NCBI GenBank assembly: GCA_030602565.1
Contig: JAUVZL010000022.1
Coordinates: 1 to 40,549, forward strand
Source: Candidatus Stahliibacteriota bacterium
GTDB lineage: Bacteria; Hydrothermota; Tepidihabitantia; SM23-42
Length of the DNA: 40,549 bases
Direction: 5' to 3'
Shown: in pieces, positions 25,823 to 40,549 of the stretch
Layout of the letters: each line of letters opens with the position of its first letter
Numbering within the stretch: position 1 is the first letter of the stretch
The notes under the pieces: generated by a model
Database searches by the model: none
Told to the model about the DNA's origin: nothing
The model's input: only the letters and a program-made list of their open reading frames with translations
Made by a program: the position numbers and the translations under genes

Positions 25823-27250
25823 CTATTTCACGATTCCTATCTGAATATTTCTGAAGCGTGCGGGTACTGTACCGTGCCCAACAAAAGCAATTTGACCAGG
25901 TTCTCCTTTGCCACAATTCGGCACGCCAAAAAGCTTCCAGGTTTTCTTATTGCCCAAGGCATCACAGCTGCGCCAGAACTGTGGTGTTATACCAGCATAG
26001 GTCGGATTTTTGTAAACTTCAGTAAGCTTTCCCTTTTCTATTTTTCGAGCCAGTTCACAGGCAAACTGGAAATTCAATCTTTTGTCATCGATCGACCATG
26101 ATTTGTTTGTTGTCATAAACACACCTTTGTTTGTATCACTGATCATGTCTTCAATGCGCCACTTGCCCGGAACCAAGTTGATATTGGTCATACGGATTAA
26201 GGGGATCCTGTTCCAACCATCAGCCCTCATCGCACCGCTTGATTTGTCATTGACAACCGGGGCGGTTTCGCGTGAAGTAAGATAACCAACAAATATACCA
26301 TTTTTAACGAGATAGATTCTTTGTGCTGGAATTCCTTCATCATCCCAGCCAAAAGTACCTAGCCCACCTGGCGTTGTCGCATCCGCCACGATACTCACTA
26401 TCTCTGAACCGTACTGTAATTTGTTCAGTTTGTCCGGCGTCATGAAACTCGTACCCGCATAGGATGCTTCAGTACCCAATACCCTGTCCAGCTCAGTCGG
26501 ATGGCCACAAGATTCATGGGTCTGAAGAACCATTTGTTCAGCGTCGAGGATTAGTGTCGTCTTCAGCTGCGGGCATGGTTTCGCACTGAGTAACATCACT
26601 GCTTCATCGCGCACGCGCGCCGCGTTATCACAAAACTTCAGTGACTCAATAAATTCAAAACCCGCTTGATTGGTGTTGCCGTAAGAACGCGACTGGACCT
26701 CACCCTTATCCATGGCAAAAGCTCGGAGACTGCCACCAGAGAAAACCATTTCCTGGGTGGTTAACGAGCCATCGGTTGAGGCAAAATGAGTTTTGACCTT
26801 ATGGAATATGAGACGTGCCATTCGAGCTTTTACTTTCTTGTTTTTGCTAAGTATCTTATCGCACGACAATAACAACTCAATTTTTTTATCGAGTGAGACC
26901 TTCATTGGATCGATCTTGAACTTCGTAACATAGGTTCCTTTTTGCGGAACCAGGGCAGAAAGCGTTATTGCTGACGATTTTACCATTGCTGACGCCCGAG
27001 CCGTACTCAGGGCATCTCGGGTTATTTTGTCGGCTTCACTCTTTTGCAGCAAGTTAGATGAAGAAAACCCCCACGCTGAATTCTTAAGAAGCCTCACGCC
27101 AAAACCAATATCTGTAGTGCGGGTCAAGGCTTCGATGACGCCGTTTTTCAAGACGATCATTTCCATTTCTCGCTCGACAACCCGAACATCTCCATAGTCT
27201 ACTTTTCTTCCCTTTAAATTACTTGTAATTCTTTTCATAAATTGCTTCAT
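25823..27250 (-). CDS. TldD/PmbA family metalloprotease
   Basis: TldD-type proteins act with PmbA/TldE partners as cytoplasmic zinc proteases that degrade unfolded peptides or mature modified peptides such as microcin B17. The HExxxH site is HESCGH (His245, Glu246, His250), and the C-terminal Cys of the NCGKGEPGQ motif, a known third ligand region, is present. GGLGTFGWDDEGIPAQ is the other conserved block. The 475-residue length is typical. No partner gene is adjacent. Promoter candidate TTGATT-16-TATAGT lies upstream. ATG 27238 is an alternative start. Confidence 0.93.
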   Translation of the reverse strand: MKQFMKRITSNLKGRKVDYGDVRVVEREMEMIVLKNGVIEALTRTTDIGFGVRLLKNSAWGFSSSNLLQKSEADKITRDALSTARASAMVKSSAITLSALVPQKGTYVTKFKIDPMKVSLDKKIELLLSCDKILSKNKKVKARMARLIFHKVKTHFASTDGSLTTQEMVFSGGSLRAFAMDKGEVQSRSYGNTNQAGFEFIESLKFCDNAARVRDEAVMLLSAKPCPQLKTTLILDAEQMVLQTHESCGHPTELDRVLGTEASYAGTSFMTPDKLNKLQYGSEIVSIVADATTPGGLGTFGWDDEGIPAQRIYLVKNGIFVGYLTSRETAPVVNDKSSGAMRADGWNRIPLIRMTNINLVPGKWRIEDMISDTNKGVFMTTNKSWSIDDKRLNFQFACELARKIEKGKLTEVYKNPTYAGITPQFWRSCDALGNKKTWKLFGVPNCGKGEPGQIAFVGHGTVPARFRNIQIGIVK

Positions 27251-27314: not shown

Positions 27315-27604
27315 GGAGAACATGAAATAGTTCTCATATCATCCACGAAATGTATGTTCTCGACAAAGCTCGCCTGTCTCGAACAAGGTGAGAGGAACAG
27401 TAACTCTTTATTCTTCGAGTAAGTCCTGAGTTTATCAAAGGACGCATCGAGAAGTACCTCAATGTGTGTTCTCGACTTCGCTCGAACAGTAATTATGATA
27501 GTCTGATGGGCTTTCCGGGTAAATTGGACAACTACAATTATTAATGCCCGATTCCTGCAGTTCCTATATCCATTACCCAAAATGAGAACTATTTCATGTT
27601 CTCC
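27315..27604. mobile_element. MITE-like element with perfect 23 bp terminal repeats (290 bp)
   Basis: Ends at 27315-27337 and 27582-27604 are perfect inverted copies (start GGAGAACATGAAATAG…). A further ATTAC word lies just outside both ends in inverse orientation. The left 140 bp reappears at about 40187-40330 with only a partial terminal repeat. It contains TTCTCGACAAAGCTCGCCTG-like words but no credible ORF and no transposase. It ends 8 bp before the stop of the histidine kinase gene. Confidence 0.8.
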
Positions 27605-30630: not shown

Positions 30631-30935
30631 ATCAGAAACTTGGACACATCCTAACAATAGGAAATAATTTCTATATTGAAAAATTTGAAAGAGTCGGATA
30701 AATCCGACCGCTACAAAATCTAACAAAAAATAAATGTAGCGGTTTGATTTATCAAACATAATATCTCTGAGGAAAGGAAAGTGACCAATTAATACACCCT
30801 CTTCCTTCCAGGGAGAGCCTACACAAACAACTTCCTCCCCCTCGAAGGGGGAGGATAAAGGTGGGGGTGAAGGAAAGGTCTGTCCTGAGCGAAGCCGAAG
30901 GGGTGAGGGTTTCCAAGTTTCTGACAATATCCCAT
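30631..30935. repeat. Repeat cluster between M6 protease and pilus operon
   Basis: In order: GAAACTTGGACACATC (30631-30646), also at 40131-40146; a 58 bp segment (30671-30728, start CTATATTGAAAAATTTGAAA) identical to the window's last 58 bp; hairpins GTCGGATAAATCCGAC and GTTTGATTTATCAAAC bridged by CGCTACA/TGTAGCG (about 30694-30763); and a GGGGGAGG palindrome (about 30824-30875). No gene is visible. Confidence 0.8.
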
Positions 30936-31103: not shown

Positions 31104-31670
31104 ATGCCCGTAAAACAAAAAAGGCTTATAATGCCGAATGCGCAGATACGCATTAGAAAAACTAAAGGTTTTACAATGATTGAATTAATGGTTGTCGTGG
31201 CGATTATCGGTATTCTTATGGTTATCGCGGTCCCGAATTTTGCCCGTATGCAGAGTCAAGCACGCGTTCGTGCCGGTGCCCAGGAAATCGCACAGGACTT
31301 CAGGCAAACAAGGGAACGTGCACTCGGACTGAGTGGAAGGTTTACCATTACTTCACCAGATAATCGGCACTACCAGGTATTGCATCCAGATGGACAGACC
31401 AGACTTTATCGACTCGGCCAAGCGACTGGTGGTAACGTCTCTTTTGGCAAGAGCGGTGTCGTGGTAGGCACACCACCTGAAGCCAATGGTCCTATACCAG
31501 GTAATGGTTGGGATTTTAATCTGGGTTCTTTAATCATGGAATCAAGGGGTGCTTCGTCTAAAGGCGTCGCCTATATTACTGATAATAGAGAAAACTACGC
31601 TATCGGGGTTAATCCACTCGGCAAAGTACAGGTTTACCAATTTATAAATGGTGTGTGGACGACCAAGTAA
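31104..31670 (+). CDS. GspH/FimT-type prepilin-like protein
   Basis: This is a minor pseudopilin of a type IV pilus or type II secretion-like system. The class III signal is cut after Gly22 (KTKG|FTMIELMVVVAIIGIL) with Glu at position +5 and a hydrophobic helix to about residue 42. A beta-rich C-terminal domain of GspH/FimT size follows. The start ATG 31104 has GGAGGTG 5 nt upstream; TTG 31071 lies within the -12 element. Total 188 residues. It is first in a co-directional set of six closely spaced genes. Likely primes pilus assembly together with the other minor pilins. Confidence 0.88.
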   Translation: MPVKQKRLIMPNAQIRIRKTKGFTMIELMVVVAIIGILMVIAVPNFARMQSQARVRAGAQEIAQDFRQTRERALGLSGRFTITSPDNRHYQVLHPDGQTRLYRLGQATGGNVSFGKSGVVVGTPPEANGPIPGNGWDFNLGSLIMESRGASSKGVAYITDNRENYAIGVNPLGKVQVYQFINGVWTTK

Positions 31671-31685
31671 TATCAAGGAGGCATC

Positions 31686-32177
31686 ATGAAAAAAATTCCA
31701 AAATACCCAAAGTCCAAAATGCCTAAAAAAACGAATACGACTAACGAATCACGAATACGAAATTCCCCTGGGTTCACGCTTGTGGAAGTCCTTGTTGCCA
31801 TATCCATTTTAAGTATCGGTATTCTCGCGGTGAGTCAAATGACGGTAATGGGTATCAGGGTCAATACCGTGGTAAATCAACGCATGTACGCGCGCGTTGT
31901 CATGGCTAAGGTATTTGAAAACCTCAATACCCTGCCGAGTAACCATGCATGGTTATTTAATACTGATGGCACAGACCTGTTGGACTACCTACCTGATTCC
32001 TCTCTGAATGACCACTTCTGGCGCGTGACTGATACTAATGCACCATACAGTTATATGACCTGGTGGCGCGTCGCGGAAAATACCCCTGAAACAGACATGA
32101 AGACTATTCGAATCTGGGTTGTGTGGGGACAAACCATGAACCATAAAATCTCCACTGACCTTATCAAGAGAATGTAG
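31686..32177 (+). CDS. PilV-type prepilin with unusually long leader
   Basis: This 163-residue minor pilin has the cleavage site SPG|FTLVEVLVAISILSIGILA (Gly29, Glu at +5), as in PilV/GspI. The leader of 29 residues is long for this class. It begins MKKIPKYPKSKMPKK and continues TNTTNESRIRN, encoded by DNA that reads like two intergenic repeat types (AAATTCCAAAATACC- and ACGAATCACGAATACG-like). The mature part is small, with Trp-rich segments (WLFN, MTWWRV, IRIWVVWG). AGGAGG lies at 31677-31682. Confidence 0.85.
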   Translation: MKKIPKYPKSKMPKKTNTTNESRIRNSPGFTLVEVLVAISILSIGILAVSQMTVMGIRVNTVVNQRMYARVVMAKVFENLNTLPSNHAWLFNTDGTDLLDYLPDSSLNDHFWRVTDTNAPYSYMTWWRVAENTPETDMKTIRIWVVWGQTMNHKISTDLIKRM

Positions 32178-32189
32178 CAAGGAGGAATC

Positions 32190-33116
32190 ATGAAAAAAGG
32201 TATGACTCTGGTTGAGATTTTGGTTTCACTTTTAATTCTCTCGTTCATACTCGCAGCAATCTTTACAATACTCAATCTTCAAATGGTCAGGTCTATCCAG
32301 GTTCAAAAAACTGCAATCCTCCAGACTGATGCTCAAGTCGTGCTAACACTTCTGAAATGGGATTTAGGCGCGGCTGGTCTTGGCTATCCAAAGCAAGATG
32401 ATGCAGTGCAATCCCAGGATAATGTTGGTGCAAATGGATCCGACGCAATTACGTTAAGAGCTGTAGGACTTGGTTTTGAATCGGCAAATATTAAATGGTC
32501 CTGGCTCCTGACAAAATCCAGCACCAACGTCATGCAGCTACGCAAGCACGATAATGATGAACTCAATTTTGTGCCCGGCGAATGGTTGGTTGTCCTGGAT
32601 GTGAATCGTAAAATAATGAACCCCCCAGGCGATATCCAAGTGACTGATACTGCGAGCTTTGTTTTTATTGACCAATGGGGCAATGCTATCCCTGGTCAAT
32701 TAGTTACGGTTGACAATCCAGTCGGTGCTATTGGTGGCTTGGTGGTGATTTGTAAATACGACCCTATATACACCCCTGGAATTACTCTCAGTTTAAACGC
32801 TAATAATCAACTGATAAGAGGCAATGATGTCCTGCTTGAAAACGTTGAAGACCTGCAATTTGCCTATGGTATTGATAGTGATGGTGATGGTGTTATAGAT
32901 GCATGGTTCAATAATGTGCCCCAATTTGCAACGGCGGGCCAAAAGTGGGCGATTCGCTATTCCATGGTTGTAACTTCAAGAACAATGGGTGGGTATGAAT
33001 ACCCGCTCAATACAATCAATCTCGAAAACAATCCCTATGCACTCTCAACTACTGATAGAATGCGCAAGCGAGCAATCCTTACTGGAATCATCGCACCGGC
33101 TAATTTGCAGCCATAG
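32190..33116 (+). CDS. PilW-type prepilin
   Basis: The 308-residue minor pilin has a very short leader, MKKG|MTLVEILVSLLILSFILAA, with Glu at +5. The mature domain is typical of PilW: long, with conserved-type phrases VLTLLKWDLGAAGLGYP, GSDAITLRAVG, LLENVEDLQFAYGID and SDGDGVIDAW. Unlike its neighbours, it has no KIPKY-type leader. AAGGAGG lies 7 nt upstream. It should form part of the minor pilin complex with the GspH-, PilV- and PilX-like proteins and PilY1. Confidence 0.88.
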   Translation: MKKGMTLVEILVSLLILSFILAAIFTILNLQMVRSIQVQKTAILQTDAQVVLTLLKWDLGAAGLGYPKQDDAVQSQDNVGANGSDAITLRAVGLGFESANIKWSWLLTKSSTNVMQLRKHDNDELNFVPGEWLVVLDVNRKIMNPPGDIQVTDTASFVFIDQWGNAIPGQLVTVDNPVGAIGGLVVICKYDPIYTPGITLSLNANNQLIRGNDVLLENVEDLQFAYGIDSDGDGVIDAWFNNVPQFATAGQKWAIRYSMVVTSRTMGGYEYPLNTINLENNPYALSTTDRMRKRAILTGIIAPANLQP

Positions 33117-33125
33117 GAGGATATG

Positions 33126-33623
33126 ATGAATAAAATTCCTAAATACCTAAATTCCGAAATACCTAAAATTAAAGCAAAAAAAGGAATTGCCATGCTCGTT
33201 GCCCTCGGCACAATGATTCTAATTCTTATCATCGCTTCTTTAAGCATCTATATTATAACGCGCGGCTTAAAAGTCACGGCTGGTCAAACACGGTATGAAA
33301 CTGTTTATGAAGCCGGGGTAGCTTCATTAGAAATAGGTCTGGCAAGAGCTGTTTATCTCAATCAAAACCTCCAGCTCCCGGACACCTCAGAAGTAATACA
33401 GGTAGGCAGTTATGAATGCTCTCTTCATGTTGAAAGAACATCCGCCACGGCGATTACGCTTTCTGGTACCGCGTTGAAGTTTGCCCGCGCCATATCAGGT
33501 CCGGGCTCAACACCTTCGACCGGGAGTTACCGTACTTATTATATTAGCACGCGCGCTAAAGGAAAAGCCGGCGAGCAGGTAATGCTCGAAGTCTTACAGC
33601 GCTATACAATCTTAGCACAATAG
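33126..33623 (+). CDS. PilX-type minor pilin
   Basis: Starting at ATG 33126 (AGGAGG at 33115-33120), the product has 165 residues. The N-terminus MNKIPKYLNSEIPKIKAKKG precedes the PilX-like hydrophobic helix IAMLVALGTMILILIIASL. PilX proteins lack the Glu at +5, as here. The small soluble domain contains NLQLPDTSEVIQVGSYECS. The leader KIPKYLNSEIPK strongly resembles those of the upstream PilV-like protein and the downstream PilY1. Confidence 0.82.
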   Translation: MNKIPKYLNSEIPKIKAKKGIAMLVALGTMILILIIASLSIYIITRGLKVTAGQTRYETVYEAGVASLEIGLARAVYLNQNLQLPDTSEVIQVGSYECSLHVERTSATAITLSGTALKFARAISGPGSTPSTGSYRTYYISTRAKGKAGEQVMLEVLQRYTILAQ

Positions 33624-33632
33624 GAGGATAAG

Positions 33633-36600
33633 ATGTACAAAAATCCAAAATACCTAAAATCCAAAATACCTAAAATTATAGGAGGTAAAACTGCGACATT
33701 TGTTTTGCTGCTTTTCGTTTCATTTGGTTTTGCTCAGGAGATGGCGCCTTATTGCTGTGCGCCACCGTTTGTCACAACTGTGGTGCCACCAAATATCCTT
33801 ATTTCACTCGATAATTCAGGGAGTATGTTTGACCGCGCCTATGCCACCGATACAATCTATATGACTGATACAACGAGTTATTATGGTTATTTTAAACCGG
33901 AAAGCAATTATGTCTGGGCAGCCAACCACTTTGAATCAAACCCTGCAGGTCCCTGGCCTGGTAATATCCTTAACTGGGCTACGCATTCCCGTGCTGATAT
34001 CATCAAAAAAGTATTGACCGGCGGTAAAGGAAATCTCCTTGGCAGTGTGGCACGTTTGCTCAGTGAAGGAAGGAGTTCATGGCGAAAATACTATCGCCGA
34101 GATTTGACAAATTATAATGAATTCTATGTTTATCACTCAGCTAACCTGACCTATGTTACCGTGACCACCCACGGCAGCAACCCGCCGATCAATGCCACGA
34201 TGAGCGGCCGGTACATCGCGGTCGATATACCGGCAGAAGAGTATCGCGGGGTGCTCGACCAGATCGGCGATAAAGATGATGACGACCACTGGGATGACGA
34301 TGCGCCGATTTTCGGTCTATGGCATTATAATTATGGGTATGGCGCATATCCATTAGAGTGGCAACCGGGGGAACCGACCAATCCCGCATTTGCTGATAAT
34401 GGCGGGTATATTAGAGATTATCTTGGCGACCCGGATATCATCGATCTTAGAAATCATATAAATGATATGGTCTGTGATACCTGGACACCTCTTGCTGAAA
34501 GCTATTTCGAGATTCTCCACTACTTTTCGCAGGCTGCTCCTTATTATTCTAATAGCGCCTACTCTGTAAACCCGGGCGGTCTGCATGACCCTTATTATGA
34601 CAAGCATTTACATGACATGGTTGTGTGCCGCAGGTCCTTTGTCTTGATGCTTACTGATGGTGAATCAACCAAGGATTTAGTGATTCCCGATTCTGATGCA
34701 AGTATGCCCCATTGCTCAAATTTACGCGATTATGATAATGATGGCAACGACCCCGGTTCATATTCATCAAAAGGTAGTGATTATCTAGATGATATTTGTT
34801 TATATGGTCATGTCAATGACCTGCGTCCAGATACTGGCACTGGCTGGGGTAACCGGGAATTGATAGATAACCAATCCATTGATGTTTTTGTTATTTATGC
34901 CTTTGGTACATCTGGTTCACAACTTTTAATGGATGCAGCAAAGAATGGTGGATTCAAGGACTTGAACGGTGACAGTATGCCTGGTCCAGATCCAGCTGAA
35001 TGGGATGAAGACGGCGATGGTATTCCAGACAATTACTTTGAAGCAGAAAGTGGTTATGAGATCGAAGAAGCAATAATGAAAGCGATTATGGCTATGCTCG
35101 AAAGGATATCTTCATCTTCTGGTGTGGGTGTTGTTTCTGCGGGTTCTAAGTCTGGCGGTGCTACGGCTCAATCCCAGTTCTACCCGAGAAGAACATTCCC
35201 TACTGGTGAGGTCTTGACCTGGATAGGTACTTGTCAAAGCCTCTGGCTCGACCCTTATGGTTGGTTAAGAGAAGACACTCAACAGGATGCAATCCTTCAC
35301 TTGCAAAATGATCATGTAATAACCATGACATTTGACCCAAGCGCTGGAGGTACTGGTAATGTCGTGATTCATAGATATCGGGATGTCAATGGCAGCGGCG
35401 ATCCTGCACAATTTGATTCTACTATCGCATCAGTGGAAATCGAGCAACTCATACCAATCTGGGATGCTGGAAAACGGCTCTGGGATCGTTTAGCGAACGA
35501 TCGGACCATAACAACCTTTGTTGATCTCGATGGCAACGGTGAAGTTAACCCGGCCACTGAACTCAAGGACTTTGTACCAGCTCAAGCGCCATTCTTAAGA
35601 CCCTATCTGGGAGTTACCACTGATGCTGACGCTGACACGCTAATCCAGTACATAAGGGGTATTGACTTTGATAATCTCAGAACCCGTACTGCAGACAATA
35701 AGGTCTGGAAATTGGGTGATATAATCAATTCTAATGCGGTTGCGGTCCAGGGTGCAATAGAACGGTACGACTTCATATATGGAGACAATAGTTATTTTGA
35801 CTATTATGAAGGGTATAAAGACCGCAAACAGGTTGTCTATACCGGTGCTAATGACGGCATGTTTCACTGTTTCAATGCGGGCAAATTAATTGACATGTCT
35901 ATGATGAGCCCTATGACACCAATCAAGTATGTGCCTGATGGTGATTCTCTCGGTGCTGAACTCTGGGCTTATATACCCTATAATCTCATCCCCCACCTCA
36001 AATGGCTAAAAGAACTTGCTTATTGCCATGTCTATTACAATGACATGAAGACCTATGTCACTGACGCTCAGATCTTCCCATCTGATCCGCCCGGTGGACT
36101 CCATCCCAATGGCTGGGGAACCATCCTTGTCGGCGGTATGCGCCTCGGCGGCATGCCGATTGATAATGATATCGACACCCGCACCTCGGCTTACTTTGCG
36201 ATCGATGTAACTGATCCGGAAAACCCGGTACCGATGTGGGAATTCACCCACCCTGACCTTGCTTTGACTACTTGCTATTCGGTCGTGGTAAAAGTCGACT
36301 CTACCTGGTTCCTGGTTTTCGGCTCGGGACCTGTAACCTGCAGCGGAGAAAGTAATCAACGCGCTAAAATCTTTGTACTTGACCTTAAGACCGGTACCTG
36401 GCTCAGAGATTTCACGATCGCCGAAGACGCATCCTTTATAACCAATATCTTCGGGGTTGACTGGGGTCTGGACTACATAGTTGACCGGATATATTGCGGC
36501 ACCTGCCATGAGGATGGTTCACTGCCTGGTGATTGGGGCGGTAAGATCTATGAGATTCTGACCCATGATAAGATTGACCCGAATGCCTGGACCATGACCG

Positions 36601-39989: not shown

Positions 39990-40549
39990 GACTGGCAATG
40001 ACCCCGTAAAACGAAGGGGGTCATTCCCTGGCTTGCCTGTCCTCTGACTAGATCAGGGGGACCAGGGAATCCAAATTCCTGGATCATCCGGTTAAACCGG
40101 ATGATGACACGAGAGTAAGTCGGATGATTAGAAACTTGGACACATCTTTATCCCTTGATTTTGAATTTATCAAATGAACTCCTCACATCAAATAGTTCTC
40201 ATATCATTTACGAAATGTATGTTCTCGACAAGGCTCGCCTGTCTCGAACAAGGTGAGAGGAACAGTAACTCTTTACTCTTCGAGTAAGTCCCACAGAAGG
40301 GGGGCGCATCGAGAAGTTCCTTTATGATGTAGTCGCACAATTCATCCACGCCCCTTATGAAGGAGCGGGATTCATCCACGCCCCTTATGAAGGAGCGGGA
40401 TTCATCGTGCAGAATATAGGAGTTCATTAGCTTGCTAATGTGTTGTCGCATGCGCCATTCCTTCACACAACTTGGCGGACAGGAAATGTCGCTATATTGA
40501 AAAATTTGAAAGAGTCGGATAAATCCGACCGCTACAAAATCTAACAAAA
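39990..40549. repeat. Terminal repeat cluster, no gene seen
   Basis: In order: hairpins ATGACCCC/GGGGTCAT and CATCCGGTT/AACCGGATG; the GAAACTTGGACACATC word (40131-40146); a copy of the left half of the 290 bp MITE-like element (about 40187-40330); two exact 30 bp tandem units (40341-40370, 40371-40400); a 60 bp segment inverse to about 17762-17822; and the 58 bp repeat of 30671-30728 (40492-40549), cut by the window end. Confidence 0.8.

Follow-up and report, generated by a model that had tools for sequence, protein, structure and literature searches.

The closely similar Lys/Pro-rich peptides of the KIPKYxxSxxPK type that open the PilV-like, PilX-like and PilY1 proteins of a type IV pilus operon are very probably translated from a short tandem repeat that is dispersed between genes, the degenerate octamer AAANNCCN, placed here downstream of the start codon and upstream of the first conserved residue. 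The operon lies in the window, i.e. the whole stretch of 40,549 nucleotides that was analysed, in the genome of a candidate-division WOR-3 bacterium referred to here as G000. Judged from its sequence, the shared leader looks like repeat DNA tolerated in a disposable stretch and not like a common export tag, and no tag function would be needed to account for it.

Results

The sequence-only reading had recognised that three proteins of the operon, all encoded on the forward strand, start almost alike, and this observation stands: their first residues are MKKIPKYPKSKMPKK (31686), MNKIPKYLNSEIPKI (33126) and MYKNPKYLKSKIPKI (33633). The operon is of the type IV minor pilin kind, with N_methyl, PilW and PilY1 domains in series: Pfam recognises N_methyl in the PilV-like protein, N_methyl and PilW in PilW, and PF05567 (PilY1) in the last gene. 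The PilX-like product has no Pfam match, and its name rests on its position and its G|IAMLVA start. Each of the pilV-like, pilX-like and pilY1 ATG codons is preceded by a GGAGG motif (31677..31688 for the pilV-like Shine-Dalgarno and ATG), and the octamer array begins 7 nt past the start codon in all three genes.

The pilV-like leader comprises 29 codons (31686..31772) up to the predicted prepilin-peptidase site G|FTLVEV. It contains the octamer array AAATTCCAAAATACCCAAAGTCCAAAATGCCTAAA (31693..31727) and runs into a second repeat-like stretch detected by TRF, ACGAATACGACTAACGAATCACGAATACG (ACGAAT-like, 31730..31761); strings of this second kind were found by eye between genes in stretch L050 and in N-terminal extensions of an outer-membrane-type protein (OMP) of G016 and a radical-SAM protein of G002. 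The pilX-like gene starts in an ATGATG at 33123 (start taken, 33126), and its 20-codon leader (33126..33185), with the array AAATTCCTAAATACCTAAATTCCGAAATACCTAAA (33133..33167), extends to the predicted cleavage site G|IAMLV, so that in both prepilins the cleavage motif lies downstream of the repeat stretch. In PilY1, the repeat peptide, encoded by AAAATCCAAAATACCTAAAATCCAAAATACCTAAA (33640..33674), would form the n-region of a signal sequence (33633..33737, read by eye) and be followed by the hydrophobic core TATFVLLLFVSFGFA. The two other prepilin genes carry no repeat leader: the pilE-like gene (31104..31670, N_methyl by Pfam, ATG at 31104 picked by eye), none of whose 16 orthologue leaders is repeat-like, and the pilW-like gene (32190..33116), with its four-residue leader MKKG. 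The earlier remark that PilW is exempt thus holds for this operon; it fails for the genomes G005 and g10, whose PilW leaders are of the repeat type.

A direct repeat of 62 nt, ribosome site included, is common to the three starts (31673-31734, 33113-33174 and 33620-33681). Over this length the pilX and pilY1 copies are 87% identical and share the tail AAAATTA, and these two leaders resemble each other in the sister genome G003 as well. Their likeness may have arisen, with a likelihood a little short of even, by copying inside the operon, through duplication or gene conversion, and not by two independent arrivals, a possibility compatible with the translation of a repeat; however, part of the identity is to be expected from a widely shared consensus, and pilV reaches only 69% with pilX.

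The leader DNA is a degenerate octamer array with periods of 8 and 16 (TRF), three units of which make 24 nt and an eight-residue peptide repeat (e.g. K-I-P-K-Y-L-K-S). The three-unit pattern matches the 2.74 Mb genome at 86 places, its reversed control at none. The claim that the leader DNA resembles repeats found between genes proved right at the scale of the genome, nearly all of the 47 array sites inspected outside the window being intergenic, and not within the window, where the strict pattern occurs in the three leaders only (loose matches: 8 versus 0.92 expected). The intergenic arrays, of 2 to >10 units, lie in both orientations between many unrelated genes, often directly upstream of a ribosome site or directly 3' of a stop codon. 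With head-to-tail units of about 7-8 nt at many sites, far above chance and mainly intergenic, they have the properties of the short tandem intergenic repeats. The octamer was found in 24 of 120 relatives, mostly of the same family and order. A pure AAATACCT array gives TAA in every frame; owing to variant units, 27 of 42 arrays outside the window contain an open frame, and in unit 3 of the pilX array a G (G000) or a C (G001) stands exactly where a T would create an in-frame TAA stop.

The dispersal of the arrays, the existence of several families and their position at gene ends, together with the hairpins such as CCCCGTTAGAT...ATCTAAACGGGG that some of them flank, could be those of small, MITE-like mobile elements inserting beside start codons. 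This is improbable and we reject it: the array sites inspected displayed neither constant ends nor target duplications, and no copies that were near-identical; the number of units is variable, and the genome of G003 contains no other close copy of the 99-nt leader described below.

Orthologous operons were compared in related genomes of the family and the order, all of them metagenome assemblies. Three members of the genus, G000, G001 and G003, possess the operon. Sister operons agree in their gene order and differ in their leaders, the distribution being another one for each gene: the octamer opens PilV in G000 and G003 and not in G001, PilX in G000 and G001 and not in G003, and PilY1 in G000 only. 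The PilX leader of G003, MKKNRKSEVERLRSYEKNFFPNLVTSKLPKFNSSKRG, and the PilY1 start of G001 and G003, MKSRNSEVKKLRG..., are the translation of a different 8-nt dispersed repeat, the GAAGTT-type GAAGTTAN (and its complement); copies of this GAAGTT-type repeat lie between genes, too, in G000, G002 and G025. The mature parts of PilX are 90-95% identical within the genus; between G000 and G003 the mature part is 95% identical versus 40% for the leader, which is built from the other repeat type. Between G000 and G001, the changes in PilX are nonsynonymous in 3/3 cases in the leader and in 13/44 in the mature part (Fisher p=0.03). The suggestion that a repeat had colonised the leader region is thus borne out by the intergenic dispersal of the same octamer, by the other dispersed repeats that occupy this place in other species and by the passage of the PilV leader into a second repeat-like stretch.

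The DNA of the G003 PilX leader (L101:2355-2475) has near-identical counterparts in G016 and G012 (L112/L110), which belong to a different genus. In blocks of 40 alignment columns, identity is 95-100% in the leader and mostly 50-80% in the flanks; between G003 and G016, codons differ at 2 of 37 positions in the leader (0 synonymous) and at 103 of 145 in the mature part (57 synonymous). The identity at silent sites suggests recombination, recent and confined to the leader, and not selection at the protein level. These comparisons point to a leader shared across genera by such an exchange, unless the assemblies are in error at this place.

Other genes have repeat leaders too. A search for a ribosome site and ATG followed by the octamer retrieved a radical-SAM/SPASM protein in four genomes, and the dUTPase of G000 also starts with an octamer leader; both proteins, identified by Pfam, are cytoplasmic, and their orthologues have other repeats or none at the N-terminus. 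In-frame repeats, as open frames, thus stand at the start of the unrelated pilV, pilX, pilY1, dUTPase and radical-SAM genes. When heptamer (CTACTG) leaders immediately downstream of a Shine-Dalgarno sequence were sought, the PilV of G016 was the only match. In an OMP of G000 (G000:C38:2152, L224), the predicted signal-peptide core FLLLTAYCLLPTVVEAQ / LLLTAYCLLPTVVEAQ is encoded by CTTACTGC-like heptamers, and among its orthologues (L234-L250) the N-terminus varies between sister species with a mature part up to 98% identical. The gene start MIYPCLLTTVCCLLTTASDLNPP (L042:2549-3100), made of CTACTGA-type heptamers, is apparently another repeat-built signal peptide.

The sequence-only reading had offered, as its second option, that the peptide is an export or coordination tag recognised at the protein level by the pilus or secretion machinery. 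Its presence on three exported proteins of one operon and the common leader type of PilX and PilY1 in G003 would suit such a role. Nevertheless, the same proteins carry unrelated leaders in sister genomes, the leader changes between the PilX of G000 and of G001 all alter the peptide, and the occurrence of octamer leaders on cytoplasmic dUTPase and radical-SAM proteins argues against an export tag. A peptide that is neither conserved in orthologues nor, as had been proposed, confined to prepilin-peptidase or Sec substrates does not pass either of the two checks set by the sequence-only reading; it is most unlikely to be a tag, and we reject this explanation.

A cis-acting DNA or RNA signal near gene starts (e.g. 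for a cold-shock, S1 or Csr-type protein), co-regulating the translation of pilV, pilX and pilY1 with the peptide as a side effect, has more in its favour and is still unlikely. The constant distance of 7 nt from the ATG, the extension of the 62-nt likeness over the Shine-Dalgarno region and the several arrays lying immediately upstream of the ribosome sites of other genes would agree with it, as would the weak folding near the three starts (-4.5 to -6.4 kcal/mol, versus -9.6 for pilW) and the translational role proposed for TAACTGA repeats in the passages of PMC4679880 that concern them. On the other hand, orthologues have unrelated repeats or none, the G003 leaders fold into strong hairpins instead, the arrays occur in both orientations between many unrelated genes, and pilE and pilW of the same operon are devoid of the octamer. 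No Rfam match was obtained between positions 27000 and 40549 of the window.

To estimate how frequent repeat leaders are, the self-similarity of N-terminal extensions at a period of 7 or 8 nt was scored (threshold 14/20); segments of the same length inside the same genes served as controls. In eight families, 41 of 144 extensions are periodic versus 0.35% of 8640 control segments. The pilus families contribute 9/24 (PilX), 3/18 (PilV), 2/15 (PilW), 3/26 (PilY1) and 0/16 (PilE), and the others 11/16 (OMP), 9/17 (radical-SAM) and 4/12 (dUTPase), these last three having been chosen after one member matched, which inflates their rates with respect to genes at large. Among random G000 genes (cutoff 16/24), periodic N-termini are not enriched (1/403 versus 12/3838 interiors), and periodic stretches are found upstream of 35.7 per 1000 genes versus 3.1 per 1000 interior segments. 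The N-terminal signal emerges only when the leaders of orthologues are compared, and the absence of enrichment in random genes indicates that repeat leaders concern a minority of genes; they are frequent in certain genes and not universal.

Several other repeats were noticed. Octamer arrays in L031, L052, L054, L057 and L065 flank hairpins such as CCCCGTTAGATGTGTGCTATCTAAACGGGG or CCCAGCCCGTTTACAACGGGCTTGGG, and further degenerate intergenic tandem families with units of 7 or 8 nt are of the AACATGTT, ATCAGG, CGACTATT and CCGTTACT types (L181:17836, L182:12742, L184:18510, L186:12545, L189:13943). In the window itself, a 46-nt hairpin repeat with the core CCTCCCCCTTxAAGGGGGAGG recurs between genes five times (6114, 9745, 22742, 25663 and 30821), and there are two longer dispersed pairs, 27320-27426 with 40185-40291, and 30671-30728 with 40492-40549, the latter a perfect match of 58 nt that extends to the contig end.

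Discussion

The model we propose is that intergenic short tandem repeats enter a tolerant stretch located directly 3' of start codons. This stretch would accept them because it is removed by the prepilin peptidase or the signal peptidase: the repeats of PilV and PilX precede the predicted prepilin-peptidase site, that of PilY1 would be the n-region of a signal peptide, and all three would be cleaved off. In cytoplasmic proteins the repeat stretch would form a loose tail at the N-terminus. Being A-rich and read as a Lys-rich peptide, the octamer would suit both a signal n-region and an unstructured mRNA start. As a guess, slippage, copying from one site to another and recombination would bring in the repeats and alter them; the recombination would use the conserved Shine-Dalgarno/ATG on one side and, on the other, the conserved beginning of the mature protein. 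Our analysis brought to light no enzyme and no process by which the repeats spread, and the equal distance of the three arrays from the ATG is more orderly than random entry would lead one to expect.

Could translated intergenic repeats be a recurring raw material for targeting peptides in this WOR-3 lineage, and could the leaders pass from one species to another as small cassettes of DNA? We put this forward tentatively and hold it somewhat less probable than its contrary; it would be based on the core FLLLTAYCLLPTVVEAQ, encoded by CTTACTGC-like heptamers, and on the PilX leader block of about 120 nt that G003 has in common with another genus. In this operon one can follow how non-coding repeats come to encode the beginning of proteins, and sister species still display intermediate states. 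Cleaved leaders would seem to be sites where repeat sequence can land safely and persist, and comparisons of close relatives offer a direct test of how signal peptides arise and are replaced. The case is also a warning that, in such genomes, the similarity of N-terminal peptides can reflect repeat DNA and not function.

Among the papers covered by our literature search, none deals with repeats of Stahlbacteria or WOR-3; the comparison below is with other groups. In gene order, N_methyl motif and PilW and PilY1 domains, the operon is like those of other type IV minor prepilins and PilY1; it differs from them in the repeat-built leaders, 20-29 residues long, that precede the predicted cleavage site. 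The short tandemly repeated repetitive (STRR) sequences of heterocystous cyanobacteria are degenerate arrays of about 7 nt that fill intergenic space, with several families per genome; the present repeats differ in sequence and phylum, in their 8-nt units and in their position at N-termini. Nor is AAANNCCN the same unit as TAACTGA, and it is not known to match any of the cyanobacterial ones.

The nearest case described is that of the TAACTGA direct repeats of Beggiatoaceae, Cyanobacteria and Bacteroidetes, as presented in passages of MacGregor 2015 (PMC4679880): they too are short tandem units, mainly intergenic and near start codons, which when intragenic mostly lie at the very beginning or end of proteins. 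They differ in being a heptamer of one fixed sequence, and the passages dealing with them describe neither a swapping of repeat types between orthologues nor a link to cleaved leaders. For repeats translated in unrelated genes, the nearest are the Rickettsia palindromic elements, of about 150 bp and inserted within genes (reviewed in PMC10969869), which are likewise dispersed families found in frame in unrelated genes; the arrays described here are made of 8-nt units over 25-100 bp directly past the start codon, and with 2 to >10 units they show neither the palindromic structure and constant ends nor the length of about 100-150 bp of such elements or of MITEs. What is new here is therefore the repeat sequence, the phylum and the swapping of leaders; the kind of phenomenon is already known.
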